DNA of 64,000 nt from Beduinella massiliensis (GTDB taxonomy: Bacteria; Bacillota; Clostridia; Christensenellales; Aristaeellaceae), in assembly GCF_900199405.1 (NCBI RefSeq), contig NZ_LT963430.1, positions 3,069,605 to 3,133,604 of the forward strand. Reading direction: 5' to 3'. The notes under the pieces were generated by a model. That model was not told the DNA's origin. It saw nothing but the letters and a program-made list of their open reading frames with translations, and did not search any database. This document shows, piece after piece, positions 40,898-61,661 of the stretch. Position 1 is the first letter of the stretch, and the number at the start of each line of letters is the position of its first letter. The position numbers and the translations under genes were made by a program.

Positions 40898-40922
40898 ACC
40901 GGCATCGCTGCGCGATGCCGGT
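40898..40922. terminator. Hairpin downstream of the LacI-ribokinase gene
   Basis: ACCGGCATCGC (40898-40908) pairs perfectly with GCGATGCCGGT (40912-40922) with a 3-base loop. On the minus strand it is followed by CTTCTTTTTG, so it also could stop leftward transcripts from nfnB. Confidence 0.6.
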
Positions 40923-41003
40923 TCCAGATGATCGACAAGGTATCGTCATATAAGTAGGTGCAGGAAGGGAGCCTTTGCCTTCATCAAAGTGCGCGAGGCC
41001 CGA

Positions 41004-41099
41004 CCGACCGGCAAAGCCGGTCGATACGATTCCACATGAAGGGGAAGCCTCCCCTTCATGCATCCCCTTTTATAAGACGATACTTTGTCAACGGTCTGA
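41004..41099. repeat. Dispersed hairpin repeat, copy A
   Basis: A 96-base element made of two hairpins: CGACCGGC-AAA-GCCGGTCG (41005-41023) and a CATGAAGGGGA / TCCCCTTCATG stem (41034-41061), then ATACTTTGTCAACGGTCTGA. A near-identical copy (about 5 differences) lies in the opposite orientation at 61391-61487. It does not overlap a gene and ends right at a GC-rich hairpin. Confidence 0.85.
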
Positions 41100-41124
41100 G
41101 GCCCGCCGTCCGGCGGGCCCTTTT
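41100..41124 (+). terminator. Hairpin at the end of the copy A repeat
   Basis: GGCCCGCCG (41100-41108) pairs with CGGCGGGCC (41111-41119), followed by CTTTTG. It lies between the converging LacI-ribokinase and nfnB genes. Confidence 0.65.
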
Positions 41125-46092: not shown

Positions 46093-46168
46093 TGGTGCGC
46101 CATCAGGGACTCGAACCCGGGACACCCTGATTAAGAGTCAGGTGCTCTACCAACTGAGCTAATGGCGC
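46093..46168 (-). tRNA. tRNA-Lys (CTT)
   Basis: The minus strand folds as a full cloverleaf of 76 bases with the CCA encoded: acceptor GCGCCAT/ATGGCGC plus A73, D-arm TAGCTCAGTTGGTAGAGC, anticodon stem CCTGA/TCAGG with loop CTCTTAA, and T-arm GGTTCGAGTCC. Anticodon CTT reads AAG. It has its own promoter and terminator. Confidence 0.97.
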
Positions 46169-46376: not shown

Positions 46377-47702
46377 ATGGACTTGAAGCAGAATATGCTT
46401 TTTTCGCTGCGCCGCGCCTGCGCAGCCGGTGTCTGCACGGCGATGCTTCTGGCGCCCTGCGCCGCATTGGCCAAGGACTATAAAAATTTGAAGCTGGGCA
46501 AGGAAAGCACGGAGGTAGCGGATTTGCAGCAGCGCCTCAAGGATTTGGGGTACTACACGGGCCGCATCTCCGGGCACTACGGAGAACTGACCGAATCTGC
46601 CGTCATCGCCTTTCAAAAGGACAAGGGGCTCGACGCGGACGGCATCGCCGGTCAGTCCACACAGGAGATGCTCTTTGAGGGCAAAACTTCGTCCTCCTCG
46701 TCCTCTTCTTCAACGTCCTCCCCGTCCGCCAGCTCTTCGTCCAGCCTGCTCAAGGAAGGCAGCAAGGGCGACGACGTCCGCCAGCTTCAGACGAAGCTCA
46801 AGGATCTGGGGTACTACAAGGGCAGCGTCACCGGCAATTTCGGCAGCCTCACCGCGCAGGCGGTCATGGACTTTCAACGCAAGAACGGCCTGAGCGCCGA
46901 CGGCGTCGCCGGGAAAAAGACGCTCGCGCTGCTGAATAATTCCTCGTCCGGGTCCGGCGGATCCTCCTCCAGCTCGTCCGAATCGGCCACCCTGCCCACG
47001 TCGGCAGTGCTCAAGATGGGCAGCAAGGGCGATGACGTGCTTTCGCTGCAGAAGAAGCTGAAGGAGCAGGGCTATTACTCCGGCGACCTCACCGGCAACT
47101 TCGGCAGCCTCACCGCCCAGGCGGTCATGAGCTTTCAGCGCAAGAACGGCCTGAGCGCCGACGGCATTGCCGGCAAGAAGACGCTCTCCCTGCTGAACGG
47201 CGCCTCGTCGTCCGGTTCGGGCGGTTCGTCCTCCGGCTCGTCTTCGACCACGAGCCCGAACGCGGGCACGGCCGCCAAGGTGCAGAACGTCAACTGGTAC
47301 ACGATGCGCGGCAAGTACCCGAACGGCACCATCATGACGGTCTACGACTTCTCGACCGGCTACAGCTGGAACCTGTCCGTCATGTCCAAGGACAAGCACT
47401 GCGACACGGAGCCCGTCACCGCCGACGACACGAACAACATGTACAAGGCGTTTCTGGGCCTCAGCAAGTGGACGATCAAGCCCGTGTGGGTGACCTTCCC
47501 GGACGGCAACACCTACATCGCCGCGACTTACACCGTCGCTCACGGCACGCAGCACAACACGCAGAACAACTTCAACGGTCATATCTGCGTGCACTTCCCG
47601 CTCTCCATGTCCGCGGCGGAGGAGATCGGCGACTGGGCCGTCAGCATGCAGAAGGCGATCGTCACCGGCTGGGACAAGACACAGAAGATGGCCGCGCAAT
47701 AA
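46377..47702 (+). CDS. Secreted protein with three peptidoglycan-binding domains and a C-terminal domain
   Basis: The 441-residue protein has a signal peptide ending CAALA, then three PG_binding_1 domains (LGKESTEVADLQQRLKDLGY; GSKGDDVRQLQTKLKDLGY; GSKGDDVLSLQKKLKEQGY) joined by Ser/Gly-rich linkers. The C-terminal 140 residues contain NNFNGHICVHFP, with His and Cys in an arrangement like that of cell-wall-modifying enzymes, but I do not recognise the fold with certainty. It is probably secreted to the wall. The start may be ATG 46377 (2 bases from GGAG) or TTG 46383 (8 bases away, giving MKQNMLFS). Domains 2 and 3 come from a recent internal duplication. Confidence 0.88.
   Translation: MDLKQNMLFSLRRACAAGVCTAMLLAPCAALAKDYKNLKLGKESTEVADLQQRLKDLGYYTGRISGHYGELTESAVIAFQKDKGLDADGIAGQSTQEMLFEGKTSSSSSSSSTSSPSASSSSSLLKEGSKGDDVRQLQTKLKDLGYYKGSVTGNFGSLTAQAVMDFQRKNGLSADGVAGKKTLALLNNSSSGSGGSSSSSSESATLPTSAVLKMGSKGDDVLSLQKKLKEQGYYSGDLTGNFGSLTAQAVMSFQRKNGLSADGIAGKKTLSLLNGASSSGSGGSSSGSSSTTSPNAGTAAKVQNVNWYTMRGKYPNGTIMTVYDFSTGYSWNLSVMSKDKHCDTEPVTADDTNNMYKAFLGLSKWTIKPVWVTFPDGNTYIAATYTVAHGTQHNTQNNFNGHICVHFPLSMSAAEEIGDWAVSMQKAIVTGWDKTQKMAAQ
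46758..47198 (+). repeat. Tandem domain duplication in the peptidoglycan-binding gene
   Basis: About 180 bases at 46758-46937 are repeated with high identity at 47019-47198 (offset 261). They encode the second and third peptidoglycan-binding domains. The Ser-rich linker between them is also repetitive. This is inside the coding sequence and could change copy number by recombination. Confidence 0.8.
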
Positions 47703-60082: not shown

Positions 60083-61138
60083 ATGTCAGAATTTCTGCGC
60101 GCATCCCTGCGCGCCCATCCCGCATCGCAGCCCGCGGACGCGGTCAAGCTATGCTATCAAAGCGCCTTTGCAGGCGGTCACATGATCGCGGACGCAGAAA
60201 AGAGCCTCGCTTTCCTGAAGGAAGAGCTCTTCGCGCTGCCGGACCGGGACGAGCCGCTCTTTGAACCGATCGGCGGCGGCTACGCGCGGCTGAACCTCGC
60301 CGGCGCGCGCCGCCTCGGCCTTCTGCCCGAGACGATGAACGCCCTGTTCGTGCGCGCGGCCAACCGCTGCCGGGGCACGATGCGGGATTTCAGCGAGCGG
60401 CTCTCCGCCCTGCGCGCACTCTGTCAGGCGGGAGGCTGCCCCTTCACGCCGCAGGCGCTGGAAGCCTACCTGACGGACTACAAGCTGCGCGGAAGCCCTG
60501 CCGTGCACCACAGCGATGCCTACCGCGAAGCGTACGCGCCCGCCTATCGCGTGGTGCTCGAAGACGACCTTAAATACCTCCCCGCCCTGACCCGAATCGA
60601 CGCGCGTCTCTCCTGCGGACAGGAAACGATCGTCGCCATCGACGGGCGCTGCGGCTCCGGCAAGACGACGCTCTCCGCGCTGCTCTGCGAGCTCTACGGC
60701 GCACCCGCCGTGCACATGGACGACTTCTTCCTGTCGCCGGAGCGCAAGACGCCCGAGCGCCTCGCGCAGCCCGGCGGCAACGTGGACCGCGAGCGCTTTT
60801 CGCGCGAGGTGCTGCCGGAGCTGCTGAGCGGGGAGGCCTTCGCCTATCTCCCCTACAACTGCCATGCGGGCGCGCTTTCCCAGGATGCGGTGCAGGTGCC
60901 CGCCGCGCGCGTTCGCGTGGTGGAGGGCGTCTACTGCCTGCACCCCGAAATCGCGCGTTCCTATCATGTAAAGCTCTTTTTGACCGTTTCGTCCCAGACG
61001 CAGCGCCGCCGCATCCTCGCGCGCAGCGGGGCAGAGATGCTCGCCCGCTTTGAGCGGGAATGGATCCCGCTGGAAGAGCGTTATTTTGAAGCTTTTTCCA
61101 TCGAAAAAGCCTGCCACGCCGTGATCTGTACGGATTGA
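60083..61138 (+). CDS. Uridine kinase-like protein with an N-terminal domain
   Basis: The 351-residue protein has a C-terminal P-loop kinase: IDGRCGSGKTTLSALL at about 188-203, VHMDDFFLS and a KLFLTVSSQTQRRRILAR lid-like segment, as in uridine kinase/phosphoribulokinase relatives. The N-terminal 170 residues are not a common partner and I do not recognise them; they contain many charged residues and no membrane segment. It may phosphorylate a nucleoside or a vitamin. AAGGAAGG lies before the start. Confidence 0.8.
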   Translation: MSEFLRASLRAHPASQPADAVKLCYQSAFAGGHMIADAEKSLAFLKEELFALPDRDEPLFEPIGGGYARLNLAGARRLGLLPETMNALFVRAANRCRGTMRDFSERLSALRALCQAGGCPFTPQALEAYLTDYKLRGSPAVHHSDAYREAYAPAYRVVLEDDLKYLPALTRIDARLSCGQETIVAIDGRCGSGKTTLSALLCELYGAPAVHMDDFFLSPERKTPERLAQPGGNVDRERFSREVLPELLSGEAFAYLPYNCHAGALSQDAVQVPAARVRVVEGVYCLHPEIARSYHVKLFLTVSSQTQRRRILARSGAEMLARFEREWIPLEERYFEAFSIEKACHAVICTD

Positions 61139-61191
61139 TTTCCCTGCATACGGCGGCCGCCTCTGCGAAGACTAAGGCCGAGGTGATGAGC

Positions 61192-61362
61192 ATGGCTGAG
61201 TATACCGATCTGTACGACGTGCTGGCCGACGACAAGGAGGCCAGGAGGCTGTTCCGTTCCCTGCCCGACTACGTGCAGGGCGCTGTGCAGCAGCACGCGT
61301 GCAACATCCATTCCGAAAAGGAATTCCGCGACTTCGTAAGCAGGCAGTATCCGGATCAATAA
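61192..61362 (+). CDS. 56-residue conserved-looking hypothetical protein
   Basis: A short gene starting MAEYTDLYDVLADDKEARRL and ending in SRQYPDQ, with AGGTG 6 bases upstream of the ATG at 61192 (an alternative ATG at 61186 is too close). The product is a small acidic helical protein without membrane segment. It lies 53 bases after the kinase gene and right before the hairpin cluster. No function is recognised. Confidence 0.6.
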   Translation: MAEYTDLYDVLADDKEARRLFRSLPDYVQGAVQQHACNIHSEKEFRDFVSRQYPDQ

Positions 61363-61366
61363 GCGA

Positions 61367-61390
61367 GACGGCCCTGACATCGGGGCCGTC
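61367..61390. repeat. 24-bp hairpin repeat, left copy (left edge of hairpin cluster)
   Basis: GACGGCCC-TGACATCG-GGGCCGTC, a hairpin of 8 bp. The same 24 bases occur again at 61605-61628, so they bracket a 214-base segment. It also could be a terminator for the upstream gene. Confidence 0.85.
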
Positions 61391-61487
61391 TCAGACCGTT
61401 GACAAAGTATCGCCTTGTAAAAGGGGATGCATGAAGGGGAAGTTTCCCCTTCATGGGGAATCGTATCGACCGGCTTTGCCGGTCGGG
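61391..61487. repeat. Dispersed hairpin repeat, copy B
   Basis: 97 bases that match copy A (41004-41099) in the reverse complement at about 95 percent. It starts with TCAGACCGTTGACAAAG and holds a GCATGAAGGGGA / TCCCCTTCATG stem (61429-61455) and the CGACCGGC-TTT-GCCGGTCG stem (61467-61485). It lies directly beside the left 24-bp hairpin. Confidence 0.85.
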
Positions 61488-61604
61488 CGGGGTGTTTTCC
61501 GTAGTCAAATGCGCAGCATTTGCGGAGGAAAACTTCTCCCGTGACATTCGTGCAAAATGTTTATTCATTTTGCACGAGGCCATCGACTTTGTCGATGGCC
61601 AGTA
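61488..61604. repeat. Hairpin cluster between copy B and the right 24-bp repeat
   Basis: Three further stems follow: GTTTTCC/GGAAAAC with inner CAAATGC/GCATTTG (61494-61533), CGTGCAAAATG/CATTTTGCACG (61549-61576) and GGCCATCGAC/GTCGATGGCC (61578-61600). No reading frame or transposase is present. The region may be a non-autonomous mobile element or a structural DNA or RNA element. Confidence 0.7.
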
Positions 61605-61628
61605 GACGGCCCTGACATCGGGGCCGTC
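61605..61628. repeat. 24-bp hairpin repeat, right copy
   Basis: Identical to 61367-61390. A TTCCTATTTTGG run follows, so it may serve as a terminator, too. Confidence 0.8.
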
Positions 61629-61661
61629 TTCCTATTTTGGCCGGCCGCCCTATCAAACGGG

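Follow-up and report, generated by a model that had tools for sequence, protein, structure and literature searches.

The nearest precedent for the element described here is IS1630 of Mycoplasma fermentans, a member of the IS30 family, whose targets are reportedly terminators. By its title, Calcutt et al. 1999 is said to show that IS1630 targets and duplicates inverted repeats of variable length. In PMC3317919 seven copies of IS1630 with 27-bp inverted repeats are described, four of which are flanked by duplications of 16, 23, 25 and 26 bp. A target that is recognised by its inverted-repeat structure and not by its sequence is described for IS1272 of Staphylococcus (IS1182 family; PMC5678879). 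For IS30 of E. coli a preference for nearly palindromic hot spots or for its own ends is described, and transposase supplied in trans was able to integrate an IS30 minicircle that lacked an intact transposase gene (both from PMC9333248).

The elements of this study were found in a window of 64,000 nucleotides from Beduinella massiliensis (contig NZ_LT963430.1, positions 3,069,605 to 3,133,604). Taken as a whole, we consider it highly probable that they are terminator-duplicating MITEs which are moved in trans by an IS1630-like IS30 transposase. With IS1630 they share a duplication of variable length, and they would also have in common an IS30-type transposase. However, IS1630 is an autonomous IS of 1.2-1.4 kb in a mollicute, whereas in the present Clostridia it is a gene-less element of 0.2 kb that is abundant, the 39-bp end of the partner IS is itself a hairpin and an empty site is seen. 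IS30 of E. coli, which makes a short 2-bp duplication and for which we know of no terminator preference, belongs to the same transposase family as the partner IS and likewise has nearly palindromic targets. Group IIC introns also insert at terminator hairpins, but they are retroelements and differ from the present element in having neither terminal inverted repeats nor a target duplication. For bacterial MITEs such as MITEAba12 (PMC6382973) we know of no duplication of a whole terminator. MITEAba12 itself is, like the element here, short, non-autonomous and IS-derived, and IS1272 has a structure-read target as proposed here but replaces the target hairpin without duplication (PMC5678879). The mode of insertion is of a known kind, and the form, the host group and the abundance are new. 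A search of the open full-text literature yielded no report of MITEs duplicating terminators, which is weak evidence of absence as the search took in few subscription papers.

A repeat search of the window showed that positions 40999-41100 and 61390-61491 form an inverted repeat of 102 nt with 94% complementarity and 6 differences. An earlier note on this DNA had described the two inverted copies 20 kb apart as 96 nt long with about five differences; the pair is real and the figures are corrected here. The likeness of copy A (the first) and copy B (the second) is far beyond chance, with E = 1.2e-39 for the match of copy B to the 102-mer query in the own-genome search. Both copies end in AACGGTCTGAG beside a GC-rich hairpin of unrelated sequence, a claim of the same note that was borne out by reading both sites. 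When the whole genome (4.18 Mb, 3 contigs) was searched with the 102-mer, at least 40 separate places were found, and the part of copy B past the 102-mer (61492-61602) returned largely the same sites, so that the element is longer than had been seen before. In total about 50 places in the genome carry the element, as a copy or as a fragment. After 48 sites, several of them partial or degraded, had been fetched and read, followed by two more, the genome-wide search for many copies that had been proposed earlier had revealed a dispersed family, and not a single pair. When the window was scanned against Rfam, the repeats did not reach the gathering score of any RNA family, and the only match was a tRNA at 46096-46168. 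Elsewhere in the window, at 46536-47209, lies a 261-bp tandem repeat (87 codons) which is apparently coding and has repeated matches also in the genomes G001 and G002.

Copy B reads as a typical insertion. The full-length element occupies 61392-61602 on the minus strand, that is 211 bp between the hairpin copies, and is 94% identical over its whole length to the 213-bp reference copy L002. On this strand its left end CTGGCCATCGAC lies at 61602 and its right end, ...GGTCTG, at 61392. The terminator hairpin AGACGGCCCTGACATCGGGGCCGTCT at 61366-61391, the target duplication, is repeated at 61604-61629 with 26 of 26 bases identical, and one extra base (61603) stands between this second hairpin and the element. 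The terminator hairpin reported earlier for this site is indeed present, but it is not a single hairpin beside the repeat, as the same 26-bp hairpin stands on both sides. Directly before the first hairpin copy lies the stop of a 75-aa ORF on the plus strand (61135-61362). In both G001 and G002 the ortholog of this ORF has one hairpin behind it and no element, and then comes a different gene. As an empty site this comparison is weak, since only the left neighbour is orthologous and the next gene differs; the same applies to site A, where the left gene differs in these genomes.

Copy A, in contrast, is atypical. It is a variant element at 40925-41098 on the plus strand with the end motif at both 40925 and 41098. 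The common module makes up its right part (40999-41098), and its right terminal inverted repeat, CAGACCGTTGACAAAGT when read inward, was located by the end-motif search at 41082-41098 on the minus strand. The left part is not the usual left half but a right end that is inverted and has diverged (CAGATGATCGACAAGGTATCGTC). The hairpin ACCGGCATCGC-TGC-GCGATGCCGGT adjoins the left end of the copy at 40898-40922, and its sequence is unlike that of the terminator hairpin GGCCCGCCG-TC-CGGCGGGCC with its T-run beside the right end (41100-41119). As the two flanking hairpins differ, there is no hairpin duplication at copy A, which from its arrangement is probably a rearranged or chimeric copy.

The commonest form of the element is 213 bp long (L002, positions 1390-1602), gene-less and without a transposase gene. 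It is a string of five consecutive hairpins (seven helices) which in L002 runs from CTGGCCATCGAC-AAA-GTCGATGGCC through TCGTGCAAAATGA..TCATTTTGCACGA and a nested hairpin around CAAATGCTGCGCATTTG to GACCGGCAAAGCCGGTC, ATGAAGGGGA..TCCCCTTCAT and finally GACGATACTTTGTCAACGGTCTG. Its ends are imperfect terminal inverted repeats of about 17 bp, and when up to two mismatches are allowed the combined end pattern CWGRNCATCRACAAAGT is present at 73 places in the genome, compared to 9 for the backward control. In an alignment of 21 copies the proposed stems are paired in 96.2% of the cells, a value that leans towards the one aligned sequence from which the stems were read; when the stem partners are slid, pairing falls to 33-50%. 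Stronger evidence for the stems than the pairing percentage are the changes on both sides, which were found in 9 of 57 pairs (shuffled mean 3.0, with none of 500 shuffles as high). These changes point to a structure that is kept in the internal stems, a point for which the earlier note had suggested a covariance model. The extent given there missed the left half of the element as well as the duplicated hairpin, and it is these two that point to the mechanism.

Several copies deviate from this plan. In L008, L009, L025, L030, L016 and L066 another hairpin-rich cassette (TGCGCCCTG...CAGGGTACGG...) replaces the internal part or lies within it, so that the elements are modular mosaics. The loop of the first stem reads AAA in 10 of the 21 copies and TTT in 4. 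L199, around G000:C3:3924918, is a copy of about 55 bp with little beyond the two ends, an extreme internal deletion. A search with the end motif, together with the reading of eight further regions, gave no copies in the own genome that are longer and autonomous, but only partial or degraded ends and chance matches in genes.

The terminator-like hairpin beside the element differs from site to site, and at most complete sites an identical hairpin stands on the other side. We counted a site as a flush duplication when a direct repeat with a score of 13 or more lay flush with both ends, and as control the left and right flanks were swapped between sites. Among the 36 of 48 sites with a left end (the remaining 12 were dropped) the complete hairpin was present as a flush direct repeat in 23, compared to 1 of 1260 swapped pairs. 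All of these are two-ended copies (23 of 30, which leaves 7 of 30 without flush duplication), and none of the six partial copies has it. With a looser cut, a score above the 99th percentile of the swapped pairs at any position, the number rises to 25 of 36; the two additional sites, L071 and L028, are not flush and were left out of the 23. These counts, together with the paired-base changes in the internal stems, support the earlier suggestion of a dispersed, MITE-like family that targets terminators.

The duplications at the 23 sites are 16-39 bp long (median 26), on average 95% of the segment is taken up by the fold, and the length follows the hairpin, with no fixed stagger. In the outside 8 bases the right hairpin has on average 4.5 T and the left hairpin 3.7 A, whereas the 8 bases facing the element contain 2.1 T and 1.7 A. 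The A outside the left and the T outside the right hairpin show that an insertion which duplicated the hairpin has divided one bidirectional A-hairpin-T terminator, turning A-tract/hairpin/T-tract into A-tract/hairpin/element/hairpin/T-tract. According to a crude ORF caller, the neighbouring genes are convergent at 11, tandem at 12 and divergent at 1 of 24 sites (the 23 and L028). At L023 and L070 in the own genome the duplicated hairpin copies differ by paired changes which keep the stem (e.g., A-T to G-C in L023), and this suggests that both copies remain working hairpins.

An empty site was found in another genus, which is related to that of the window and includes the genomes G184 and G185. 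At the locus L239 of G184, GGACAGGCTCTGAAATGGCCTGTCC stands on both sides of an element relative of about 250 bp. G185 has at the same locus one hairpin and no element, the flanks are 88% identical on both sides, and the two flank alignments overlap by 26 bp, which is the hairpin. Within the genus of the window, the element is present at the site L026 in B. massiliensis, and both G001 and G002 have one terminator hairpin without element there. The genes on either side are orthologous (74-79% identical), with the hairpin sequence itself diverged. A genome search of G001 and G002 gave no match to the element. The site L004 was rejected for this comparison, as in both genomes its left and right flanks fall on separate contigs.

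Of 308 genomes of the taxonomic family, 65 have a match to a part of the element, mostly to the GACCGGCAAAGCCGGTC module and not to the whole. The module GACCGGCAAAGCCGGTCGATACGATT also occurs in many genomes of the family within other repeat types (e.g., L108, L116, L122), without the ends described here. The 26 loci collected from other genomes comprise 11 distinct two-ended elements, 2 repeats of these, 6 one-ended or internal-module loci, 3 loci truncated at a contig end and 4 flank loci that lack the element. All 11 distinct two-ended elements, from the six genomes G177, G184, G185, G186, G187 and G259, have the hairpin on both sides. At one locus, L286 (G184:C6:9316-9558), the hairpin stems are identical and the loop is inverted (TTTTAC vs GTAAAA), as if one hairpin had flipped.

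With the profile NF033563 no IS30 transposase was found in the genome of the window, while 69 of 308 genomes of the family have a match, and a similar transposase is present in 38 of 396 genomes of the order. When named genomes were scanned with the transposase, five loci were obtained, all in Candidatus Faecaligallichristensenella faecipullorum (Clostridia; G072), a member of the same family as the window's genome. Its IS is present with two full-length ORF copies of 328 aa, which reach NF033563 scores of 286.5 and 283.3 against a cut-off of 80; in a check for the HTH and the DDE core, PF13936 was above and PF00665 just below the cut-off. The transposase is flanked by 39-bp inverted repeats GGGTGTTGACAAAGTCAACACCCTTCGAAAAAATGAAAA, starting with C(A/T)GGGTGTTGACAAAGTCAACACCC, and this 39-bp end is itself a hairpin. 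The MITE L241 of the same genome starts with the IS end sequence, with 39 bp in common at the left end, and is flanked by duplicated hairpins; at its right end the likeness to the IS end is confined to roughly the outer 15 bp. At the level of sequence it is shown that the IS and the MITE of this genome have ends in common. A hairpin adjoins 4 of the 5 readable outer ends of the IS. The fifth, which has none, belongs to L246, the only copy with both flanks readable, so that at L246 just one of the two sides has a hairpin. The IS30-family IS of G072 is the likely mobiliser of the MITEs, on which it would act in trans, and it may duplicate hairpins itself.

For comparison 50 IS30 loci were taken, 19 from the family, 30 from the order and the IS of G072 again as L237. 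Eight were cut by contig ends, and among the 42 scored none outside G072 had element-like hairpin ends. Around the IS30 gene direct repeats of 15-27 bp were found at L214, L215, L216 and L324. The repeats at L215 and L324, of 23-27 bp, fold in part. Hairpin duplication may be wider among IS30 relatives.

Other origins have to be weighed against these data. REP/BIME-like elements, spread or maintained by a RAYT (Y1, HUH) transposase, would explain a dispersed, intergenic and hairpin-rich repeat at gene 3' ends with stems that keep pairing, the hairpins being the mobile unit and serving as terminators. We consider this very improbable, because the terminal inverted repeats are kept across genera, the flanking hairpin changes from site to site while the two hairpins of any one site are the same, and the target duplication is seen at an empty site. 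To our knowledge target duplication is not expected for Y1 elements, and no REP elements are described that combine terminal inverted repeats with a duplicated target; as both are present here, the REP-like option offered by the earlier note does not fit. The geometry of hairpin, insert and hairpin also resembles the repeat-spacer-repeat order left by integration of the CRISPR-Cas1 or casposase type, in which a repeat is duplicated. Those systems measure the duplication with a fixed ruler, but here its length varies from 16 to 39 bp with the hairpin and the insert ends are conserved inverted repeats, so that such an origin has next to no probability. Less remote, though still unlikely, is a MITE of another DDE transposase (e.g., IS1182/IS1272-like or IS1634-like), with the IS30 copy of G072 having only picked up the ends. 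The own genome is without IS30, in a search with NF033563 that covered IS30 only, and IS1272 targets stem-loops by structure (PMC5678879). However, according to the same source, IS1272 replaces the target hairpin without duplication, and all IS copies in G072 with readable ends carry the ends that have 39 bp in common with the local MITE.

Selection could now keep the element as a double terminator or 3' UTR element, in which the internal hairpins stabilise mRNA or insulate genes. The compensatory changes inside the element and between the duplicated hairpins of L023 and L070 are in line with a structure that is kept, as is the finding that at least one gene ends towards the element at 23 of 24 sites (again by the crude ORF caller). 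But presence and absence vary between close genomes, and pairing could be kept for transposition alone or by template switching in palindromes. Among the alternatives this one is the least improbable, although we would not expect it to hold, and it concerns the use of the element and not its origin.

The reading as terminator-duplicating MITEs accounts for a short, gene-less, multicopy element with terminal inverted repeats, a target duplication together with an empty site, and ends in common with an autonomous element (in G072). Such a family is real and well supported, and most likely its members belong to an IS1630-like IS30 transposase; we infer the enzyme from the shared ends, and in the same way the recognition of the target by shape. 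A transposase of the IS30 family, similar to that of IS1630 and supplied in trans, would bind the MITE ends and recognise a target by its palindromic or cruciform shape. The element would then be joined to opposite strands at the hairpin base, and gap repair would yield two hairpins. As the A-tract stays on one side and the T-tract on the other, each neighbouring gene ending there would keep a terminator. The insertion would be close to neutral, and the family could reach a high copy number.

More tentatively, and with slightly less than even confidence, we propose that the transposase reads the target DNA by shape alone. It would dock on an extruded cruciform or on a terminator hairpin opened by transcription and join the strands at the hairpin foot, the stagger being set by whatever hairpin is present (16-39 bp). 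Nearly all DDE transposases cut the target strands at a fixed spacing. Here the spacing varies more than twofold with the hairpin, in dozens of insertions at different sites and with an empty site for comparison, which makes structure-guided target choice directly testable. If reading by shape alone is true, this would be a natural, sequence-independent, length-independent and structure-guided insertion into terminators which leaves both neighbours terminated, and many of the paired identical terminators of gut Clostridia would find their explanation in it. For annotation, twin terminators around a hairpin-rich stretch in such Clostridia can be an insertion. For the parasite, the strategy would be to insert next to genes without leaving them unterminated.
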